DNA from: Nonomuraea harbinensis
GTDB taxonomy: Bacteria > Actinomycetota > Actinomycetes > Streptosporangiales > Streptosporangiaceae
Reading direction: 5' to 3'
DNA: 64,000 bases
Assembly (NCBI RefSeq): GCF_019396385.1
Contig: NZ_JAHKRN010000008.1
Location: 1 to 64,000, forward strand
Below the pieces are notes generated by a model. That model saw nothing but the letters and a program-made list of their open reading frames with translations. It was not told the origin of the DNA and ran no database searches. Below are positions 4,184 to 27,249 of the stretch, piece by piece; position 1 is the first letter of the stretch; each line of letters begins with the position of its first letter. A program made the translations under genes and the position numbers.

Positions 4184-5038
4184 GTGGCTATGCAGACAGA
4201 GATCCGGAGCCTTTTCGACTGCGATGTCATCGACTCCGATGGTCAGCGGGTCGGCAGGGTCGGCCAGGTCTACCTCAGCGACCGCACGGGGGACCCGGAG
4301 TGGGTCACGGTGCGCACCGGGATGTTCGGCATGAAGCAGAACTTCGTGCCGCTGACCGGTTCGCGCCGGTCCGGCAACGAACTGCGCGTCCCGTTCGTCA
4401 AGGAGATCATCAAGGGCGCGCCCAGCATCGACGTGGACGAACACCTGACCCTGGAGGAGGAGGCCGGGCTCTACCGCTACTACGGCATGCAGCCGTCCAC
4501 CATCCCCAGCCAGCGCAAGCCCGAGGGCACGACCGGAACGACCACCGGAAAGACCGGAACGTCCGGAACGACCGCCGGGATGACCGGAAAGGTCACCGGG
4601 CCCGCGCCCGAGCGGCGCGGCGCGCGGGGGACCGAGCGGGACGTCGACATGACCCGCTCCGAGGAGACGATGCACGTCGGCAAGGAGACGAGGGAGGCCG
4701 GCCACGTCCGGCTGCGCAAGTACGTGGACAGCGAGAACGTCCAGGAGAGCATCCCGCTGGAGCACGACGAGGTCGTGATCGAGCGCGAGCCGATCTCCGG
4801 CGGCCAGCCCCTGGAGGGGCGCGAGCTGGAGGAGGACGAGGAGTCCATCACCCTGTACGAGGAGCGCCCGGTCGTCGGCAAGGAGACCCGGCCCGTCGAG
4901 CGCGTGCGCCTGCACAAGGAGAGAGTCCGCAAGGACGAGACGGTGCAGGGGGAGGTCCGCAAGGAGCGCTTCGAGGTCGACCGGGACGGCACGACCATCG
5001 ACGAGCGCGACGAGCGCGACGACCGACGAGGGCGCTGA
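4184..5038 (+). CDS. PRC-barrel / DUF2382 (YsnF-type) stress protein
   Basis: 284 residues. The N-terminal PRC-barrel (about 3-85) reads TEIRSLFDCDVIDSDGQRVG...; a low-complexity Gly/Thr/Lys linker (about 105-140) follows. The C-terminal DUF2382 domain (about 155-275) has duplicated V-x-K-E-T-R and V-R-L-x-K elements and very high Glu/Arg content. Proteins of this architecture are general-stress proteins of unknown mechanism. GTG 4184 is chosen because GGGGGA is spaced six bases upstream; ATG 4190 is the alternative. The open frame extends far upstream but that part is not protein-like. It ends at a strong hairpin. Confidence 0.85.
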   Translation: MAMQTEIRSLFDCDVIDSDGQRVGRVGQVYLSDRTGDPEWVTVRTGMFGMKQNFVPLTGSRRSGNELRVPFVKEIIKGAPSIDVDEHLTLEEEAGLYRYYGMQPSTIPSQRKPEGTTGTTTGKTGTSGTTAGMTGKVTGPAPERRGARGTERDVDMTRSEETMHVGKETREAGHVRLRKYVDSENVQESIPLEHDEVVIEREPISGGQPLEGRELEEDEESITLYEERPVVGKETRPVERVRLHKERVRKDETVQGEVRKERFEVDRDGTTIDERDERDDRRGR

Positions 5039-5062
5039 CGCCCTCTTTCGCGCGGTTCTCAG

Positions 5063-5088
5063 GCGAGGGCGCACGGTCGCGCCCTCGC
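5063..5088 (+). terminator. 10-bp hairpin terminator
   Basis: GCGAGGGCGC and GCGCCCTCGC pair around a six-base loop, followed by TTTC, 25 bases after the PRC-barrel gene stop. Confidence 0.7.
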
Positions 5089-5582
5089 TTTCAGATGATG
5101 AAAGAACTCACATAGCGCAAAGAAACCCCCGAATTCGGGCGCGCCTGATCCCGCTTGCGGGCTGTCACGACCCGTTACTCCGTGGTTGCTCTCTTACCCT
5201 CCCGCAGGGTAGCCGCGCCTGACCTTCGGGTTACATGGCGGACGGCTCGCCCGTGGCCCCCTTCCGCGGCCGAGATCCCCTTTCCGAGCACTACCGGAAC
5301 GGTTTCGGGCGGTCTTCCACGCCGGCTGACCGGCGCGCCTGAAGGTTCCTGCGAGCCGCCCTGTGACCCACGGGGGCATTCCAACGCATTCGTTAAGTAG
5401 CAGTTGACAGCTTGACGGTAAATGGCAGGATCAGGGCGTGAACAAGTAGTTCAGGGTTTACAGAGCACTTCGCGGATGTCCTGAAAGGGGAGGTGACCAG
5501 CGAGATGAGCGTTACCCCCGACGGCGCCGCACCGACGTCACGGCCGACCGCGACCCAGAACCCGTTCGGTAGGAGCCCCGCC
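5089..5582 (+). promoter_or_regulatory. ~490-base leader/intergenic region with a promoter for the flavin-oxidase set
   Basis: No convincing gene lies in this stretch. It holds a perfect 12-base palindrome CCCGAATTCGGG (5128-5139), several small hairpins (for example ACCCT/AGGGT near 5200) and a good promoter: TTGACA at 5404-5409, a 16-base spacer and CAGGAT at 5426-5431. That promoter leaves an untranslated leader of roughly 145 bases before the preferred start at 5583. I could not match it to a known riboswitch. Confidence 0.4.
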
Positions 5583-5792
5583 ATGCACGTCCACCCCGAT
5601 TACCGCCACCCCTACGACGGAGACCGGCAGCCGCCCAAGCCGCGTCTGGCCGTCTACGACCACCTGGAAGAGATCGCCGCACCCGAGCCGATCGAGCCTG
5701 ACACCCAGGTCACCGAGCGGCTGTGGCAGATCCGGGAGATATCGAACAGGGCCATCGGCTCCATCGACGACCTGCTCAAGCGCACCGCCTGA
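5583..5792 (+). CDS. Small 69-residue protein leading the oxidase/exporter set
   Basis: Starts MHVHPDYRHPYDGD and ends in a helical segment (TERLWQIREISNRAIGSIDD). There is no cysteine, signal sequence or membrane helix. ATG 5583 has an ideal AGGAG seven bases upstream. In-frame starts at 5505 and 5493 would add a Thr/Pro/Ala-rich extension and have poorer spacing. It lies 78 bases before the VAO-type oxidase on the same strand, downstream of the only clear promoter. I do not recognise a family. It could be a precursor peptide, a partner or regulator of the flavoenzymes, or unrelated. Confidence 0.6.
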   Translation: MHVHPDYRHPYDGDRQPPKPRLAVYDHLEEIAAPEPIEPDTQVTERLWQIREISNRAIGSIDDLLKRTA

Positions 5793-5870
5793 TCGCGAAC
5801 CAATGAGGGGGGAGACCCGGCGAAGCGGCCGGCGACCCGCGGGGAATGTCTCGGCTCACCAAGGAGTGTC

Positions 5871-7271
5871 ATGCAAGGTCACACGCGACTGGCGTCAGCA
5901 GTACGCGACGTCGGAGCACACCGCGCGCGGATGATCGCGGGCGTCGCGCGGCCCCAGAACGTCGACGAGGTACGCGCCGTGGTGCGGCGGGCAGCCGTCG
6001 AGGGGCGTCGTCTATATCCGCTGAGCACCGGGCGCAACTGGGGCATGGGCTCCGGCGTGCCGGCCAAGGACGAGAACGTGGTCGTCGACCTCAGCGCCAT
6101 GAACCGCATCCGCAGCCTGGACCTGGAGAACGGCTTCGCCGTCATCGAGCCCGGAGTGACCCAGCGCCAGCTCGCCGAGGAGCTGCGCGACACCGACTGG
6201 ATGCTCAACGTCACCTCCTCGTGCGCCGACACCTCCGTGGTCGGCAACGCGCTGGAGCGCGGCGACGGCTCGATCCGCTCCCGCGTGCACGACCTCGCCG
6301 GGCTAGAGGCCGTGCTCGCCGACGGCAGCCTCGTCAGCACCGGCGGGCTGGACCACTGGGGCCGCTACCGCGGCGCCGTCGCCGGCCCCGACCTGACCGG
6401 CGCCTTCGTCCAGCACAACCTCGGCATCATCACCGCGGGCGTCATCGCGCTGGTGCCCCGCCCGCAGGCCATCGGGCTGGTGCACGCCCGCATCCCGCGC
6501 GACCAGGCCGGCCGGGCCGTGGGCGCGGTGGGTTCGTTCCTGCGCAACGGCAACCCCGCCGACGGGCTGCTGCGGGTGCGCGAGCTGTCGCTGACGCCCA
6601 GCCGGGGCGGCTGGATGCTCCCGGACGGGGTGGACCCCGAACTGCTCACCATCGTCGGCCCGCTGCTCGGCAGCGGGGAGACCGTCCGCCTGGCCGAGGA
6701 CCTGCTGCGCAAGCACCTGCTGGAGGTCGAGGGCGCCGAAGGGCTCCGCGTCCTGGACGCCGCGGCGGTGAGCCCCGACGACCCCCTCTACCCGCGGGCG
6801 CTCATGGCCCAGGGCATCCCCAACTGCCTGAGCGTGCACAACGCGCTCGGCGTCACCTCCTGCGACGACGTCGACGCCGGTCAGATCGGCTTCCTCGTGC
6901 TGCTGCCCAAGCTCCCGATGGACGAGATCTCCACCGAGAACCTCCTGACCGTGCTCCGCGCGGCCGTCGAGTGCAACGGCACCGCGGCGATGATGGAGTG
7001 GAACATGGTCAGCAGGAACCTCGCCAACGGCGTCATCCAGATCTTCTTCGACCGGGGCGTGGCGGACGCGCCGGCCCGCGCCCACCGCCTGCGCCAGGAC
7101 GCCAACGGCCTGCTGCGCGGCTACGGCTGCCCCATCTACCGCTCCGACATCGACAACGCCGCCGCCGACGTCTACGCCCAGTCCTCGACGGCGACCCTGT
7201 CCATGCTCTACCGGCTCAAGGGCGCGCTGGACCCGTACGGACTGGTCTCGCCGGGACGCTACAGCGCCTGA
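5871..7271 (+). CDS. VAO/PCMH-type FAD-binding oxidase (4-cresol dehydrogenase / vanillyl-alcohol oxidase-like)
   Basis: 466 residues with AAGGAG before the ATG. The FAD-binding half spans about residues 22-200. It includes PLSTGRNWGMGSGVP (50-64), close to the S-x-G-R-N-x-G-Y-G motif of the phenol-oxidising VAO subfamily, VVDLSAMNRI (71-80) and TSVVGNALERG (121-131). The C-terminal half is a substrate cap domain ending in LDPYGLVSPGRYSA, also typical of this subfamily. Such enzymes oxidise para-substituted phenols, alcohols or amines at the N5 of FAD. Substrate and covalent attachment cannot be assigned by eye. It is followed by a 26-bp palindrome and an exporter gene, which suggests modification and export of one compound. 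Confidence 0.8.
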   Translation: MQGHTRLASAVRDVGAHRARMIAGVARPQNVDEVRAVVRRAAVEGRRLYPLSTGRNWGMGSGVPAKDENVVVDLSAMNRIRSLDLENGFAVIEPGVTQRQLAEELRDTDWMLNVTSSCADTSVVGNALERGDGSIRSRVHDLAGLEAVLADGSLVSTGGLDHWGRYRGAVAGPDLTGAFVQHNLGIITAGVIALVPRPQAIGLVHARIPRDQAGRAVGAVGSFLRNGNPADGLLRVRELSLTPSRGGWMLPDGVDPELLTIVGPLLGSGETVRLAEDLLRKHLLEVEGAEGLRVLDAAAVSPDDPLYPRALMAQGIPNCLSVHNALGVTSCDDVDAGQIGFLVLLPKLPMDEISTENLLTVLRAAVECNGTAAMMEWNMVSRNLANGVIQIFFDRGVADAPARAHRLRQDANGLLRGYGCPIYRSDIDNAAADVYAQSSTATLSMLYRLKGALDPYGLVSPGRYSA

Positions 7272-7296
7272 CGGCGGCGGGGACGGGAAGGCACGA

Positions 7297-7322
7297 CCGC
7301 CGCCCGGCGCGCCGGGCGGCGG
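7297..7322. promoter_or_regulatory. Perfect 26-base palindrome between oxidase and exporter genes
   Basis: CCGCCGCCCGGCG followed by its exact reverse complement. As RNA it makes a very stable stem between the stop of the oxidase and the start of the exporter. It could be a partial terminator, an RNA-stability element that uncouples the two expression levels, or a dyad bound by a regulator. Confidence 0.55.
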
Positions 7323-7356
7323 GAACGACATCCGGGCTCTCATGGAGGTGGCCACG

Positions 7357-9018
7357 TTGCGTCAGTCGCCAGTCGTCGATACGGGCTCATACCCGGTCAC
7401 GCGAAAGCCCGCACGCGGGCGCGGCACGCTGCTGCGGCTGGTAGGCGCCGGCGTCATGTTCACCGTCATGGCCGACACCACGGCCACCACGCTCGCCGTC
7501 GGCCTGATGCAGCACGGCGACGCCGGGAACGCCCTGCCGCTGAACGACCTGCTCTGGCTGACCAGCGCCGCGTTCGTGCCGATCGCGGCCCTGCTGGCCA
7601 CCGCGGGACGCTGGGCCGACCTGTTCGGCCGCCGCCGCGTGCTGATCATCGGGCTCGTGGTGTTCGTCCTCGGCGGGCTCGCCACGCTCACCGTGCCCGA
7701 CTGGCCGATGGTCCTCGCGGCCAGGGCCGTGCAGGGGGTCGGCGCCGCCGCCATGATCCCGGCCAGCCTCGCCGTGCTCCTCGGCGAGCTGCCCGAGCAC
7801 CAGCGGCGCGGCGCCATCGCGCTGTGGAGCTCCGCGTCCGGCGTCGGCTGCCTGCTCATGCAGGCGGGCGGCGGCTGGCTGGCGGAGGGGTTCGGCTGGC
7901 GCGCGCTGTTCGCGCCGGTCGTCGTGGTCGGCATGCTCCTGCTGCTCGCCGCCACCTGGCTGCCGCCCGGCCTGCCCGCCGGCCGGAGCGGCGCCCGGAC
8001 GCGGCCCGACATGCTCGGCGCGGTCCTGCTGGCCGCCTCGATCGGGGCCATCGTCCTGGCCATCTCCAAGGCGACCTCGTGGGGCGTGGTGTGCGCCTAC
8101 CTGGCCGCCGGCGCGCTCGTCCTGCTGGTCCTGTCGCTCCTGCGGTCCCGCCGGCACCGGGTGCCCGCCGTCGACCTGACGCTCTGGCGGCGGCCCGGCT
8201 TCGCCTGGGGCTGGCTCGCGACCTGGGGATTCGGCGTGCTGTCGTACGGCCTGCTCGCGCTGCAGCCGCTCTACCTCCTGCACCTGGGCTTCCCCATGCT
8301 GGAGGTCGCGCTGTGGCTGACGCCCACCTCCGTCGCCGTGGCGGTGACCGCGTGGCTGGGCGGCAAGGTTGTGCGCAAGCTGGGCCCGTACGGGCTCATC
8401 TACGTCGGCGCCACCGCGTGCGGCGGCTCCTGTGTCGTGGCGCTGGCGCAGAGCGGTCCCACGCTGTGGGGGCTCGCGGCGAGCGTCGGCGTGGGCGTCG
8501 GGGTGGGGGCGCTCGCGCCCGGCACCTCCATGGCCACCACCCTGGCCGCCCAGCCGCACCAGTACGCCTCCGCGGTGGGCGCGGCCGTCATGTCCCGCAT
8601 GGTCGGCGGCGCCGTCGGCGTGGCCACCGTGTCGGTCGTCATCGGCCACCCCTTCATGGTGGGCCCCATGGGCGGTCTGGCCAGCGCGCTGGCGGTGTGC
8701 GTGGCCGTCTCCGTGCTGGTCGGCACGCTCGCCCTGATCAAGATGCTGCGGATGCCGCACGCCACCGGCGAGGTCATGGTCCTGGTGCCCCGCAAGATGC
8801 TGCTGGAGCTGCGCATGCAGCTGGCCACGGTCGCCGCCGAAGCCGACGCGCTGCTGCCCCCGCAGCCCGCCGCCGACCCCGGCCACCCCGCGGTCCCGGC
8901 GGTACCGCCCCAGCTGGGGCGGGGCCAGGCCCACGCCATGAGGCCCGGCTCGCAACCCCGCGTGCACGGGGGCACGCGTCTCGCAAGAACACCAGAAGGG
9001 CTCTCATCATGGCAATGA
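7357..9018 (+). CDS. MFS drug/metabolite exporter, DHA2 (14-helix) type
   Basis: 553 residues from TTG 7357. The gene contains about 14 hydrophobic segments, the loop 2-3 motif GRWADLFGRRRVLIIG and the motif-C-like helix ASSASG (around residues 155-180). These are signs of the DHA2 family of proton-coupled efflux pumps for antibiotics and dyes. A cytoplasmic tail of about 80 residues follows the last helix. I prefer TTG 7357 because GGAGG (7345-7349) sits seven bases upstream, whereas ATG 7342 has no ribosome-binding site. It lies between two flavoenzymes and overlaps the start of the second, so it probably exports their product or substrate. Confidence 0.85.
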   Translation: MRQSPVVDTGSYPVTRKPARGRGTLLRLVGAGVMFTVMADTTATTLAVGLMQHGDAGNALPLNDLLWLTSAAFVPIAALLATAGRWADLFGRRRVLIIGLVVFVLGGLATLTVPDWPMVLAARAVQGVGAAAMIPASLAVLLGELPEHQRRGAIALWSSASGVGCLLMQAGGGWLAEGFGWRALFAPVVVVGMLLLLAATWLPPGLPAGRSGARTRPDMLGAVLLAASIGAIVLAISKATSWGVVCAYLAAGALVLLVLSLLRSRRHRVPAVDLTLWRRPGFAWGWLATWGFGVLSYGLLALQPLYLLHLGFPMLEVALWLTPTSVAVAVTAWLGGKVVRKLGPYGLIYVGATACGGSCVVALAQSGPTLWGLAASVGVGVGVGALAPGTSMATTLAAQPHQYASAVGAAVMSRMVGGAVGVATVSVVIGHPFMVGPMGGLASALAVCVAVSVLVGTLALIKMLRMPHATGEVMVLVPRKMLLELRMQLATVAAEADALLPPQPAADPGHPAVPAVPPQLGRGQAHAMRPGSQPRVHGGTRLARTPEGLSSWQ

Positions 9019-10139
9019 CGACATCCTGCGACGTAGCGATCGTCGGCGCCGGTCTCGGCGGCTGCTTCCTGGCCCTGTTACTGGGCCGCAGCGGCCGGAG
9101 CGTCGTCGTCGTGGAGCAGGGCACGGCCATCCCGGCCGCCGGCGCCGACTTCGTCAAACGCCCCGGCATGGCGGTCCTGGCCCGGCACGGGCTGGGGAGC
9201 CTGGTGGAACGGCACTCGCTCAAACGCGACATCGTCCGCTACTACCACGACGGCGAGCCGATCCAGGAATGCCGTTACCCCGACGGCTTCCTCATCCGCC
9301 CCTACCGCGAGCTGGTCGAGGTCATCTACTCGTCCTGCGCGATGGAGGGCGTCGAGTTCTGGTTCGACTCGCGGATCGAGAGCCTGGAGCGCGACGGCGA
9401 CCAGGTGGCCCGGCTGGTCCTGGCCGACGGCCGCGAGCTGCGGCCCGGCGTGGTCATCGCCGCCGACGGCACCCGCTCGATGGTGCGCCAGGAGCTCGGC
9501 ATCACCAAGGAGACCACCTCCTACCCGCACATGCTGCGGGTGGCCACGGTGCCGCTGACCGCCAGCGTCGCCCGGCTCAACCGGCTCTACTTCAACTCCG
9601 CGGGCTGGTTCAGCTACCTCTATCCGGTCAACGAGGAGCAGGCTCGCGTGTTCGTCGGCCTGCCGCTGGAAGACGACGACGAGGTGTTCGGGCACGGCCT
9701 GCTCGTGGACGCGCTCAAGGAGTTCGTCACCGAGAACGACGACGCCTACGACGTCCTCGGCCCCGCGCACTGGCAGAAGATCCCGGTGGCGGCGATGCGC
9801 GTGCCGGTGTACCACAAGGGCAACGCCGCCCTGCTCGGCTCGGCCGCGTTCGCCTGCCACCCGATGACCGGCATGGGCATGAGCTACACCATGCACGACG
9901 CCGAGATCCTCGCCGGGATCATCTGCGCCGCCGAGGGAGACCCGGCGCTGCTGGAGAAGGGGCTGGAGACCGGGTACGAGCCGCGCAGGCACGCGCACGG
10001 CGAGCTGATCGACTACGGTGACGCGCTGTCAGGGACGTTCCACGACAAGGCGGCCTACCTGGACGTGTTCCGCGAGGACCTGCACGTGTTCGGCGACACC
10101 GAGCCGATCGGCGACGGGTACGTCAGGGTGCTGCGCTGA
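9009..10139 (+). CDS. FAD-dependent monooxygenase (group A-like) with atypical second FAD motif
   Basis: 376 residues. GAGLGG in the N-terminal Rossmann strand (residues 13-18), AADGTRSMVR (151-160) and a C-terminal GMGMSYTMHDAE stretch (288-299) place it with aromatic hydroxylases and epoxidases. The usual G-D-A-A-H contact to the FAD ribityl chain reads GSAAFACHP (277-285), so the Asp is Ser. ATG 9009 or 9015 are both possible; the latter overlaps the exporter stop as ATGA, a sign of translational coupling. It is the last gene of the set and its 3' end overlaps the convergent serine-hydrolase gene by 17 bases. Confidence 0.8.
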   Translation: MAMTTSCDVAIVGAGLGGCFLALLLGRSGRSVVVVEQGTAIPAAGADFVKRPGMAVLARHGLGSLVERHSLKRDIVRYYHDGEPIQECRYPDGFLIRPYRELVEVIYSSCAMEGVEFWFDSRIESLERDGDQVARLVLADGRELRPGVVIAADGTRSMVRQELGITKETTSYPHMLRVATVPLTASVARLNRLYFNSAGWFSYLYPVNEEQARVFVGLPLEDDDEVFGHGLLVDALKEFVTENDDAYDVLGPAHWQKIPVAAMRVPVYHKGNAALLGSAAFACHPMTGMGMSYTMHDAEILAGIICAAEGDPALLEKGLETGYEPRRHAHGELIDYGDALSGTFHDKAAYLDVFREDLHVFGDTEPIGDGYVRVLR

Positions 10140-19932: not shown

Positions 19933-21114
19933 TCAGATCAGCTCCAGCGCCTGACGGGCGATCTCCCACTCCTCGTCGGTGGGGATGACCAGGACCGCGA
20001 CCTCCGCCCCGGGCGGCGAGATCGCCCGCTCGCCGTCTCCCGCGGCCTCGTTGCGCGCCGGGTCCACCGCGACGCCGAACCTCTCCAGCCCGGCCAGCGA
20101 CGTGGCCCGCGTCGCCGCGTCGTTCTCGCCGACGCCGCCGGTGAACACGATCGCGTCCACCCGGCCCAGCACCGCGTAGTACGCGCCCACGTACTTGCGG
20201 ATGCGCCGGCAGTAGACGTCCAGCGCCAGCCGTGCCTCGCCGTCGCCGTCCGCCGCGCGCCGGCGCACCTCGCGCATGTCGCCGGTGCCGGCGAGCGCGA
20301 GCAGGCCGCCGTGGCGGCCGAGCGCCTCCTCCACGTCCTGCGTGTCGAACCCGGCCACCCGGCCCAGATACGCGCAGAGCGCCGGGTCGACGTCGCCCGA
20401 GCGGGTGCCCATCACCAGGCCCTCCAGCGGGGTCAGGCCCATGGAGGTGTCGACGCTGCGCCCGCCCTCGACCGCGGTGGCGCTGGCGCCGTTGCCCAGG
20501 TGCAGCACGATCAGGTTCACCCTGGCGGGGTCGCGGCCCAGGAACGCGGCCGCCCTGCGGGACACGTACGCGCACGAGGTGCCGTGGAAGCCGAACCGGC
20601 GCACGCCCAGCCGCTCGCGCCACTCGCGCGGCACCGCGTAGGTGTACGCCTCGGGCGGCAGCGACCGGTGGAAGGCCGTGTCGAACACCGCCACCTGCGG
20701 CACCCCGGGGAAGGCGGCCTGCGCCACCCGGATGCCGGTCACGTTCACCCGGTTGTGCAGCGGGGCCAGCGGCGCCAGCTCCTCGATGGCGGCCACCACC
20801 GGCTCGTCCACCAGCACCGCCGCGCCGAACCGGTCGCCGCCGTGCACCACCCGGTGGCCGACCGCCACCGGGTCCAGCTCCGGCCCCACCGTCCGGAACG
20901 CCTCCAGCACGGCTTCGAGGCCCTGCTCGTGGTCCGCGTAGACGCCCTTCCTCCGGTACGGGGGAGCGTCGCCTGCATGGTGGGTCAGCAGGCCCTCGCC
21001 CTCGTGGATCCGCTCGATGACGCCGCGCGCGGGGCGGGCTCCCGACTCGGCGTCGATCAGCTCGTACTTGATGGAGGAGGAGCCCGTGTTCAGGACGAGG
21101 ATGTGTGCGGCCAT
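19933..21114 (-). CDS. ackA: Acetate kinase
   Basis: 393 residues, full length. It contains the N-terminal signature [15 protein letters not shown], catalytic-region motifs GHRVVHGGD and [18 protein letters not shown], and the phosphate-loop-like HLGNGASA. It makes ATP and acetate from acetyl-phosphate. Its start overlaps the 3' end of the phosphoketolase gene by 25 bases, so the two are co-transcribed and co-translated. No phosphotransacetylase gene is nearby, so acetyl-phosphate here most likely comes straight from phosphoketolase. Confidence 0.95.
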
Positions 21115-23393
21115 GTCCACGAACTGATCTCGGGGGCGTCCTCGCCGTACATGCGGGTGTAGGCGCGGGCCTGCAGCCGGGCGTCGGACATGCGCTGGCG
21201 CAGGTGGGCGGCCTTCGAGCCGAGGCCGGGCACCCGGTCGATCACGTCCATCACCAGGTGGAAGCGGTCGATGTCGTTGAGCATGCACATGTCGAAGGGC
21301 GTGGTCGTGGTGCCTTCCTCCTTGTAGCCGCGCACGTGCAGGTTGTCGTGCCCGGTGCGCCGGTAGGTGAGCTGGTGGATCAGCGTCGGGTAGCCGTGGA
21401 AGTTGAAGATGATCGGCCGTTCGGTGGTGAACAGCGTGTCGAACTCGGAGTCCGGCATGCCGTGCGGGTGCTCCGACGGCGGCTGCAGCCGCATCAGGTC
21501 GACCACGTTGACGACCCGGACCTTCAGCTCCGGCATCTCCTCGCGCAGGATCGAGGCGGCGGCCAGCGTCTCCAGCGTCGGCACGTCGCCCGCGCAGGCC
21601 AGCACCACGTCCGGCTCGCTGCCGGCGTCCGTGGACGCCCACGGCAGGATGCCCAGGCCGCGCGTGCAGTGCGCGATGGCCTCGTCCATGCCGAACAGGT
21701 CCAGCACCGGCTGCTTGCCCGCCACGATCACGTTCACGTAGTCGCGCGAGCGCAGGCAGTGGTCCGTGACCGACAGCAGCGTGTTCGCGTCCGGCGGCAG
21801 GTACACCCGCACCACCGACGCCTTCTTGTTGACCACCACGTCCAGGAAGCCCGGGTCCTGGTGGCTGAAGCCGTTGTGGTCCTGCCGCCACACGTGCGAC
21901 GACAGCAGGTACGTCAGCGACGCGACCGGACGCCGCCACGGGATCTTCTGCGACGACTCCAGCCACTTGGCGTGCTGGTTGAACATCGCGTCGACGATGT
22001 GGATGAACGCCTCGTAGCAGTTGAACAGGCCGTGCCTGCCGGTCAGCAGGTAGCCCTCCAGCCAGCCCTGGCACAGGTGCTCGCTCAGCACCTCCATGAC
22101 CCGCCCGGCCGGTCCCAGGTGCTCGTCGGTGGGCAGCAGCCCGGCCTCCCACGTCCGGTCGGTCGCCTCGAAGACGGCGCTGAGCCGGTTCGAGGCGGTC
22201 TCGTCCGGGCCCATCAGCCGGAACGTGCGCGGGTTGCGCTCGATGACGTCGCGCAGCAGCCTGCCCATCACCCTGGTCGGCTCGGTCGACTGGGTGGCCG
22301 GGGCCTTGACCTCGACGGCGAGGGCGCGGAAGTCCGGCAGCCGCAGCGGCGTGAGCAGCTCGCCGCCGTTGGTGTGCGGGTTGGCGCTCATCCTGAGCTC
22401 GCCGCGCGGCACCGTGTCCAGGATGCCCTGAACCGGCCGGCCGCCGGAGTCGAACAGCTCGTCGGGCCGGTAGGAGCGCATCCACTCCTCCAGCATCGCC
22501 AGGTGCTCGGGGTTGTCGTGCACCGCCGACAGCGGCACCTGGTGGGCGCGCCAGGTGCCCTCCACCGGCAGCCCGTCGACCACCTTCGGGCCCGTCCAGC
22601 CCTTCGGCGTGCGCAGGATGATCATGGGCAGGCGCTTCTCGGCGCCCTCCCGGTACGCGGCGATCTGCTCGAACGCCTCGTCCAGGGTGCGCGCCATCTC
22701 CTCGTGGTCCGGGCCCACGAGGTGCGGGCGGTACCCGTACCCCTCCATGAGCTTGAGCAGCTCGTCCTCGGGGATGCGGGCGAGCACCGTCGGGTTGGCG
22801 ATCTTGTAGCCGTTCAGCGAGAGGATCGGCAGCACCACGCCGTCGCGCTCCCGGTTGAGGAACTTGTTGGAGTGCCAGCTCGCCGCCAGCGGGCCCGTCT
22901 CGGCCTCGCCGTCGCCGATGACGCACGCCACCACCAGGTCCGGGTTGTCGAAGGCGGCCCCGTACGCGTGCGCGAGCGCGTACCCCAGCTCGCCGCCCTC
23001 GTGGATGGAGCCGGGGGTCTCCGGCGCCACGTGGCTGGGGATCCCGCCGGGGAAGGAGAACTGCCGGAACAGGCGGCGCATGCCGTCCTCGTCCTGCGTG
23101 ACGTCGGGGTAGCGCTCGGTGTACGAGCCCTCCAGCCAGGAGTGCGCCACGGCGGCGGGGCCCCCGTGCCCGGGTCCGGCGATGTAGATCATGTCCTGGT
23201 CGCGCTCGCGGATGACGCGGTTCAGGTGGGCGAAGCAGAAGTTCAGCCCGGGGGTGGTGCCCCAGTGGCCGAGCAGGCGCGGCTTGACGTGCTCGCGCCG
23301 CAACGGCTCGGTGAGGAGTGGGTTGTCCAGCAGGTAGATCTGGCCCACCGACAGGTAGTTGGCCGCACGCCAATAGGCATCGATGTCGTCCAT
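21090..23393 (-). CDS. xfp: Xylulose-5-phosphate / fructose-6-phosphate phosphoketolase
   Basis: 767 residues, the normal size. It has the N-terminal [15 protein letters not shown], the thiamine-diphosphate motif [28 protein letters not shown] and the C-terminal [27 protein letters not shown]. It cleaves xylulose-5-phosphate or fructose-6-phosphate with phosphate to acetyl-phosphate plus glyceraldehyde-3-phosphate or erythrose-4-phosphate. With ackA it gives ATP without the lower glycolytic steps. The start is ATG 23393. It is divergent from the sugar-acid dehydratase by 96 bases, so the two transcripts share an intergenic control region. Confidence 0.95.
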
Positions 23394-25617: not shown

Positions 25618-27249
25618 TCACGACGGGCGGCCGCGCAGCTCGCGGTAGACGCGGACGAGCCGCTCGGTCGAGGGGTCGGGGAAGCCGGCCTGCGGCTCGT
25701 CGGAGGTGAGCGCGGGAGCCAGGTCGAGCGCCATCTTCTTGCCCAGCTCGACGCCCCACTGGTCGAAGGAGTCGATGCCCCAGATGGTGCCCTCGACGAA
25801 CACGACGTGCTCGTACAGGGCGACGAGCTGGCCGAGGGTCGACGGGGAGAGCTTCGGGACGAGGATGGTGGAGGTGGGCCGGTTGCCCGGCATGACCTTG
25901 TGCGGCACGACCGCGGCGGCGGTGCCCTCGGCGGCGATCTCCTCGGCCGTCTTGCCGAACGCGAGCGCCGAGGTCTGCGCGAACAGGTTGGCGGTGAGCA
26001 GGTCGTGCATGCCCTCGCGGTCCTCGTACGGCTCGGCGAAGCCGATGAAGTCGGCGGGCACCAGGTGGGTGCCCTGGTGGAGCAGCTGGTAGAAGGCGTG
26101 CTGACCGTTGGTGCCCGGCTCGCCCCAGAAGATGGCGCCGGTGTCGCAGGTGACGGGGGCGCCGTCGGCGCGCACCGACTTGCCGTTGGACTCCATGGTG
26201 AGCTGCTGGAGGTAGGCGGGGAAGCGGTGCAGGCGCTGGCTGTAGGGCAGCACGGCGCGGGTCTGGGCGCCGAAGAAGTCGGCGTACCACACCCCGAGCA
26301 GGCCCATCAGCACCGGCATGTTGGCCTCGAAAGGAGCGGTGCGGAAGTGCTGGTCGATGGCGTGGAAGCCGGCCAGCATCGCGCGGAACCTGGCCGGCCC
26401 GACGGCGATCATCAGGGACAGGCCGATGGCGCCGTCGTAGGAATAGCGGCCGCCGACCCAGTCCCAGAAGCCGAACATGTTGTCGGTGTCGATGCCGAAC
26501 TCGGCGACCTTGGCGGCGTTGGTGGAGACGGCCACGAAGTGTTTGGCGACGGCGTCCTCGCCCAGCGCGCCGACCAGCCACTGGCGGGCCACCCTGGCGT
26601 TGGTGAGGGTCTCGAGCGTGGTGAAGGTCTTGGAACTGACCACGAAGAGCGTGGTGGCGGGGTCGAGGCCGCGGAGGTTGCCGGTGATGTCGGCCGGGTC
26701 GATGTTGGAGACGAACCTGGCCTCGATGCCGGCGTCGGCGTAGTCGAGCAGCGCCTCGTAGGCCATCGCGGGGCCGAGGTCGGAGCCGCCGATGCCGATG
26801 TTGACCACGGTGGCGATGGGCCGCCCGGTGGCCCCCCGCCACTCCTGGGCGCGCACCCGGTCGGCGAAGGCGGTCATCTTGTCGAGCACGGCGTGCACGT
26901 CGCCGATGACGTCCTGGCCGTCGACCACGAGGGCGGTGTCGGCGGGGGCGCGCAGCGCGGTGTGGAGGACCGCGCGATCCTCGCTGACATTGATGTGCTC
27001 GCCGGTGAACATGGCCTCGATGCGCTCGCGAAGCCCGGCCCGCTCGGCCAGCCGCACCAGCAGCCCGATGGTCTCACTGGTGACGCGGTGCTTGGCGTAG
27101 TCGAGGTAGAGGTCGCCCGCCGTCAGCGTCATGCGGCCGGCCCGGCCGGGGTCGTCGGCGAACAGCTCGCGCAGGTGTATGCCCGCCAGCTCACCATGGT
27201 GCTTCTCCAGCGCCGCCCACTCCTGGCTCTGGGTGATGTCGCCGTTCAC
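25618..27249 (-). CDS. pgi: Glucose-6-phosphate isomerase
   Basis: 543 residues, full length. The family signatures are [17 protein letters not shown] and the C-terminal [14 protein letters not shown], and [18 protein letters not shown] is in the N-terminal half. It interconverts glucose-6-phosphate and fructose-6-phosphate in glycolysis and gluconeogenesis, and so can feed the phosphoketolase encoded 2 kb away. The start is GTG 27249 with GGAGG upstream. Two repeat clusters fill the 190 bases before it. Confidence 0.95.

Follow-up and report, generated by a model that had tools for sequence, protein, structure and literature searches.

A conserved and apparently undescribed cassette of a small protein, two flavoenzymes and an exporter in Nonomuraea

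The two flavoenzymes considered here have described relatives. PqsL of Pseudomonas aeruginosa is an amine hydroxylase with 2-aminobenzoylacetate as substrate, in which Gly45 stands in for the arginine that binds the FAD pyrophosphate (PMC7248105). Eugenol oxidase, vanillyl-alcohol oxidase (VAO) and p-cresol methylhydroxylase (PCMH) make up a family of proteins of about 500-560 residues. A relative of each is encoded in the window, by which we mean the whole stretch of 64,000 nucleotides that was analysed (positions 1-64,000 of Nonomuraea harbinensis contig NZ_JAHKRN010000008.1), within a cassette read at 5393-10139 that also encodes a small protein (SP) and an exporter of the major facilitator superfamily (MFS). 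The small-protein family is new, and the cassette is real, conserved and apparently undescribed: no counterpart of the cassette was found in the open-licence literature searched, in agreement with the sequence-only reading of this DNA, which knew of no characterised cluster of such make-up. The genes, and the probable ribosome-binding site of the first, are as follows.

5568-5575, + strand: GGTAGGAG, probable ribosome-binding site of SP; the same sequence or a close variant in 20 relatives
5583-5792, + strand: SP, open reading frame for a small protein of 69 residues; an in-frame alternative ATG at 5505 would give 95 residues
5871-7271, + strand: VAO/PCMH-type FAD oxidase (hereafter VAO) of 466 residues; PF01565, E 4.9e-26; fold match to 4-phenol oxidases; orthologues 65-93% identical
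7342-9018, + strand: MFS exporter, DHA2-like, of 558 residues; PF07690, E 3.7e-38; TIGR00711 below its cut-off
9015-10139, + strand: PqsL-like FAD monooxygenase (FMO); start within ATGA, alternative ATG at 9009; PF01494, E 2e-28

The conservation of this set was followed in 20 loci gathered by VAO similarity in named contigs, a search that reaches close relatives only (19 loci labelled Nonomuraea and one [Actinomadura] parvosata); together with the window they are called type I, and their gene content was read with a simple gene caller and BLAST grouping. The order SP-VAO-MFS-FMO is kept in 20 of 20, and a chance neighbourhood was therefore rejected. Of 54 Nonomuraea genomes, 37 have a VAO orthologue, and each of the 37 shows an SP match at most 100 nt upstream of VAO, cut at a contig end in G003, G024 and G048; since the 20 loci and the 54 genomes overlap, the two sets of counts are not additive. 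With SP standing next to the oxidase throughout and the order constant, the set proposed in the sequence-only reading is indeed a conserved unit. One VAO gene (G017:C1:4611407-4612805) is read in two frames with overlapping ends, through a frameshift or a sequencing error. In a family sample of 200 genomes, full-length VAO orthologues were found in nine, all Nonomuraea, five further genomes matching over the FAD domain only, and a first SP profile matched ten, again all Nonomuraea.

Most relatives carry two genes more than the window. A protein of about 300 residues with no known family, fam8, is encoded between the promoter and SP in 16 of the 20 loci, and a PF00487 desaturase-like gene lies 3' of FMO in 17. 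Both are absent from the window and from L021; fam8 alone is missing in L022, L023 and L040, and the desaturase-like gene in L033 and L039. The window cassette is hence a reduced form of the relatives' set. The same-strand genes, the promoter and the ATGA junction of the original proposal were all found at their positions; its picture of one promoter facing four genes holds in the window, while elsewhere fam8 usually follows the promoter and the desaturase-like gene trails. MFS and FMO overlap by ATGA in the window, L021, L022 and L023; L040 has GTGA at this point, and in the remaining 16 loci the junction is of another form. At the site of most relatives' desaturase-like gene the window has a beta-lactamase-fold serine hydrolase (PF00144; 10123-11217, - strand).

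Pfam recognises FAD_binding_4 in VAO, MFS_1 in the exporter and FAD_binding_3 in FMO; SP matches nothing in Pfam, NCBIfam or the PDB. It belongs to a family without an earlier label, defined here by its motifs. SP is built of an N-terminal RHPY, a proline-rich middle of variable length and a C-terminal helix motif, RLxxIRxxSxxAIGSIDDLL. Across 21 sequences (alignment A1) there is no variation at twenty positions, which comprise the starting Met, RHPY and a C-terminal block with AIGSIDDLL and the Thr next to the end; 20 of 20 relatives share the start of the 69-residue form (Met at 5583), preceded by GGTAGGAG or a near variant. Among the last 25 columns, 15 have an invariant residue, and 10 of these differ in codon. 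The C-terminal RLxxIRxxSxxAIxxIDxxL and the N-terminal R-x-P-Y-like motif are present in alignments A1 and A4, the latter showing that the most conserved part is alike across cluster types. A broad SP profile matched in 48 of 53 Nonomuraea genomes and weakly in two of 274 others (E 0.003 and 0.0088); these two were dismissed as SP outside the genus, one lying in an ABC-transporter-like gene and the other over an opposite-strand aminotransferase-like gene.

The family is not limited to type I loci. Twenty further loci contain SP-like proteins of the same build (the copy of L109 is shortened), in a paralogous cluster of fam8, MFS, SP, a GluTR-dimer fragment, an Amdase-like protein, an FAD monooxygenase, an Asp/Glu racemase-like protein and a HemB-like protein. 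The full set is called type II; in the reduced type III, MFS is partial or undetected and no HemB is found. Among 47 such loci in 47 genomes, 11 are type II and 36 type III; of the latter, 25 retain a partial MFS and 11 show none. L148 and L159 run into a contig end short of where FMO and HemB would stand, and were assigned to type III for want of an MFS between fam8 and Amdase. VAO is absent from all 11 type II genomes and present in 36 of 36 type III genomes. Each type forms one clade in a midpoint-rooted locus tree, which implies one replacement or divergence event and not 47 independent ones. G009 has VAO and lies outside the 47, and in G001, G032, G034, G037, G038 and G040 there is no VAO and no type II or III locus was obtained. 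The C-terminal motif of SP decays in type III, with scores from -0.1 to 39.8 bits and 10 of 36 below 15 bits, on a profile built from type I and II sequences, by which construction type II reaches 50-54 bits. The window genome itself has a decayed type III locus (L117, G000:C45, about 4500-8900), in which fam8 and the Amdase-like gene are kept, a tail remnant of MFS and a decayed SP remain and FMO is absent. The type II loci (L092-L095, L103, L105, L134-L138) combine a HemB (porphobilinogen synthase) homologue and a lone GluTR dimerisation domain with the Amdase-like, racemase-like and FAD monooxygenase genes, and in L175 a HemC-like gene lies near MFS and an Amdase-like fragment.

Other payloads were reached through further fam8 matches and the broad SP profile. 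L168 encodes fam8, MFS, SP, an FMN oxidase and a chorismate lyase-like protein; L171 and L172 both encode fam8, MFS, SP and a thiamine pyrophosphate (TPP) enzyme, to which L172 adds a chorismate lyase-like gene; in L173, MFS and an SP match are accompanied by a TPP enzyme, an Amdase-like protein and FMO. In L195-L198, MFS, SP and a TPP enzyme are joined by genes of the 2,3-dihydroxybenzoate (DHB) pathway, in varying order and completeness (L196-L198 by similarity). L195 is a second SP cluster of the window genome (G000:C94:28500-44500, SP-like gene at L195:7785-7997), with an isochorismate synthase (TIGR00543, 275.7 bits, above cut-off), a DHB dehydrogenase (290 bits, cut-off 312), an isochorismatase-domain protein and a TPP enzyme. 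The MFS of four type II loci and of L168, L171, L172 and L195-L198 is 37.7-45.9% identical to that of the window, and in type II and these loci SP lies directly 3' of, or adjoins, an intact MFS. Across Nonomuraea clusters SP thus usually recurs beside a homologous MFS with differing enzymes. In L168 the fam8-MFS-SP set has a terpene synthase-like gene (PF19086) for a neighbour, on the other strand and some 1.2 kb upstream of fam8.

A tie of SP to FMO was also considered, prompted by the decayed type III locus of the window genome, where FMO is gone and SP has decayed. It is weakened by L168, L171, L172 and L195-L198, which have SP and no FMO among their identified neighbours (part of the neighbours were domain-scanned); L173, where SP match, TPP enzyme, Amdase-like protein and FMO occur together, points the opposite way. 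The companion fam8 has its own distribution: it was found in three of 394 genomes of a class sample at E <= 1e-5, strongly in Nonomuraea only, and in five genomes of other genera in the family sample at E below 1e-10. In L125, L126, L128 and L129 (other genera) and L130 (Nonomuraea), fam8 has an MFS nearby and no SP by pattern search, so that fam8 and SP are separable. The predicted model of fam8 (mean pLDDT 69.7) gave no Foldseek match at E <= 0.001, and VIA-align returned mixed helical rows with Z at most 8.6.

Two upstream-region alignments, of 5 and 16 type I loci, define the elements ahead of the operon.

5404-5431, + strand: promoter TTGACA-16-CAGGAT; neither box varies among the five fam8-less loci
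5393-5410, + strand: conserved promoter/operator repeat, copy 1, TTAAGTAGCAGTTGACAG; overlaps the -35 box
5444-5463, + strand: copy 2, degenerate, AAGTAGTTCAGGGTTTACAG; counterpart of the ATTAAGTGTCAATTTACG-like repeat in the 16 fam8 loci

The -35 box TTGACA occupies 5404-5409 and CAGGAT 5426-5431, with a gap of 16 nt, and neither TTGACAG nor GGCAGGAT varies between the window and the four loci nearest to it (L021, L022, L023 and L040). On either side of the start region stand two repeats, in the fam8-bearing type I loci approximately TTAAGTGnCAGTTGACAG and ATTAAGTGTCAATTTACG; in the window clade the first is good and the second degenerate. This conserved tandem, near-palindromic element sits on the promoter. 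Most type II and III loci have repeats like AACTGTCAGTTGACA and TAACTGAGGCTTAACAG ahead of fam8, around TTGACA, and a shared regulator may lie behind the repeats of type I and paralogous loci. A genus scan with the pattern AASTGNSAGTTGACA, which the window's own element does not match exactly, gave 81 sites in 44 of 53 genomes and none for the reversed pattern. Of 11 stretches taken around sites beyond the SP loci already identified, six are type II or III loci and five are not (L139, L140, L141, L143, L144), hence the pattern is not confined to SP loci. In L140, L141 and L144 it marks another common locus (gene groups c17-c22), with no SP found nearby. An XRE/DUF5753 gene is divergent from and adjoins an SP-paralogue locus; any role at the repeats is putative.

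The PCMH-type domain of VAO scores over the gathering threshold of PF01565. Its predicted model, of moderate quality (mean pLDDT 64.3), matches eugenol oxidase and other 4-phenol oxidases in Foldseek over the whole chain, cap domain included (474-534 columns, TMq 0.58-0.68, among the 50 matches listed), and phenol oxidases lead in the sequence profile, with E 5e-36 vs 3.2e-21 for D-lactate dehydrogenase. For FMO the nearest solved relative is PqsL (2x3n; E 1.4e-51, residues 6-358 aligned), and the family has GAGLGG in 20 of 20 covering sequences and ADG in 21 of 21; NCBIfam PRK07045 reaches 225 bits against an equivalog cut-off of 397. The flavin of FMO may have to be reduced elsewhere, as we presume from the behaviour of PqsL. 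The exporter is a member of MFS_1. Its assignment to DHA2 is a tentative one, from a TIGR00711 match (E 1.7e-30) that scores 106.2 bits against a curated cut-off of 230.2, and its best NCBIfam matches are efflux families, all under their cut-offs. For the 14 helices counted in the sequence-only reading, a simple hydropathy scan gave no clear number. The remark of that reading that PKS (polyketide synthase) and NRPS (non-ribosomal peptide synthetase) genes are lacking also agrees with what was seen: no such domain in the cassette or in eight further window genes, the part of the remainder that was scanned. Elsewhere in the window lie a phosphoketolase (XFP) gene (21090-23393, - strand) with a phosphoglucose isomerase gene nearby (25618-27249), and a 240-residue open reading frame (83-805) of low complexity with RGEWDKYKGD-like repeats and much His, Asp and Lys.

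The explanation that we prefer, at roughly even chances, is that the cassette is a PKS/NRPS-free operon that makes and exports a small phenolic or aromatic compound, with SP as an accessory and not as substrate. An aromatic precursor made elsewhere would enter the pathway, the VAO-type enzyme would, by its predicted activity, oxidise a para-substituted phenol, and the PqsL-like FMO would hydroxylate an aromatic ring or an amine; in most relatives the desaturase-like enzyme could provide a third oxidation, and the product would leave through MFS. In SP a flexible linker would join the R-x-P-Y-like motif to an amphipathic helix at the C-terminus, and the protein would most likely tether or tune the exporter, or the exporter together with the enzymes. 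The data show gene content and conservation, SP paralogues that adjoin homologous exporters in other clusters and a like promoter element; substrate, product, direction of transport and role of SP we infer. A small aromatic product fits with the genes for chorismate-derived aromatic acids in paralogous clusters whose SP and MFS belong to the same families. Several findings weigh against this explanation. No precursor-supplying gene is present in the window's set. D-lactate dehydrogenase (mLDHD) folds match the VAO model with like TM-scores, hence the fold does not fix the substrate. The GD motif of FMO is GS in 21 of 21 sequences, which leaves its activity less than certain and is the reason for calling it PqsL-like and not PqsL. 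The type I MFS stands two genes downstream of SP. A strict pattern still finds SP in 22 of the 36 type III loci, which lack a full MFS, and six of the 22 have no detectable MFS remnant, so that the tie of SP to an exporter is not strict. Finally, the last 25 codons of SP show 731 synonymous and 906 nonsynonymous pairwise differences, and part of the C-terminal block does vary.

The lack of a precursor gene, together with two oxidases and a drug-type exporter, would also suit an inducible detoxification or resistance operon, in which a toxic phenolic from outside is oxidised by VAO and FMO and expelled through MFS, and a repressor sits on the tandem element until the compound releases it. The conserved near-palindromic element on the promoter and the efflux families, sub-cut-off as they are, that head the matches of the exporter speak for it; nevertheless, sister clusters that share these SP and MFS families hold genes of committed biosynthesis (isochorismate synthase, DHB dehydrogenase and chorismate lyase-like), and conservation throughout a genus would be unusual for resistance genes, so that we consider this rather unlikely. 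SP, with fam8 where present, could instead be a regulator of the operon and no partner of exporter or enzymes, as might be suggested by fam8 being the first gene after a conserved promoter in 16 of 20 loci and by its place beside MFS in other genera where pattern search finds no SP. Yet neither SP nor fam8 matches a DNA-binding family at cut-off (SAM_SMF came up once, below threshold, at E 0.034), type II and DHB-type loci have SP within the operon, and fam8 is missing from the window clade while the promoter repeats remain, one of them degenerate; such a role appears improbable.

The sequence-only reading had allowed for two products, a small aromatic or the small protein itself. The former is compatible with the chorismate-using sister clusters; the latter, in which SP would be the precursor of a ribosomally synthesised and post-translationally modified peptide (RiPP) and VAO and FMO would oxidise its Tyr or C-terminal residues before a mature piece is exported, is disfavoured by the paralogues. 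A small gene does come first in an operon that also encodes two oxidases and an exporter, and the Tyr of RHPY is conserved. However, SP paralogues accompany unrelated enzymes (Amdase, TPP enzyme, isochorismate synthase) that share no tailoring enzyme, the type III SPs among the sequences listed lack the Tyr, and no peptidase or recognised RiPP enzyme is seen among the cassette genes. Nor does SP show the constant leader, variable core and common modifying enzyme of such precursors: its C-terminus is near-invariant, its conserved part is alike across clusters, and no enzyme occurs in all SP locus types. Because the same SP family serves unrelated enzyme sets, SP as a flavoenzyme substrate is the least favoured reading, very improbable in our judgement, and an accessory role gains by it.

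Returning to the preferred explanation, an aromatic product exported with SP as accessory, a wider proposal can be attached to it, which is possible if doubtful: SP and MFS may act as a modular dock through which orphan aromatic metabolites are exported, SP being a small, apparently disordered linker, often accompanied by fam8, that serves at least four interchangeable enzyme payloads and is confined to Nonomuraea in the genomes searched. If so, SP and MFS would be a genome-mining hook for such metabolites, and Nonomuraea would contain a family of orphan PKS/NRPS-free aromatic clusters with a common SP, exporter and, in part, promoter element, and differing enzymes. As their flavin, TPP and chorismate enzymes are ordinary, such clusters may escape rules based on PKS, NRPS or RiPP signatures, and an SP profile finds them directly. 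One may also ask what retains a small protein that is no enzyme when the payloads around it change.

Compared with the described systems, VAO shares the FAD domain and the whole-chain fold of eugenol oxidase, vanillyl-alcohol oxidase and p-cresol methylhydroxylase (best 8bam, 24% identity, Foldseek E 1.2e-22), and with 466 residues it is shorter than that family. Where 9ffk has RDLHHI, whose His we take to be the FAD-linking residue, the window family profile reads srhlangvi, with no His at the HH, which makes covalent linkage of FAD doubtful. The window FMO resembles PqsL in having a glycine at the place of Gly45 in PqsL; it differs in that LGDAIHNVHP of PqsL corresponds to LGSAAFACHP, invariant in 21 of 21 sequences, and no quinolone genes are seen in the cassette. 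The 2,3-dihydroxybenzoate sets, which we take to be those named DhbACB and EntABC (the families were matched by NCBIfam), share isochorismate synthase, an isochorismatase domain and DHB dehydrogenase with L195, although none of their genes is in the window cassette and no NRPS was seen among the L195 genes examined. With RiPP clusters the cassette has a general anatomy in common, of small precursor-like gene, oxidases and exporter, whereas SP, with its near-constant C-terminus, recurs beside unrelated enzyme sets.

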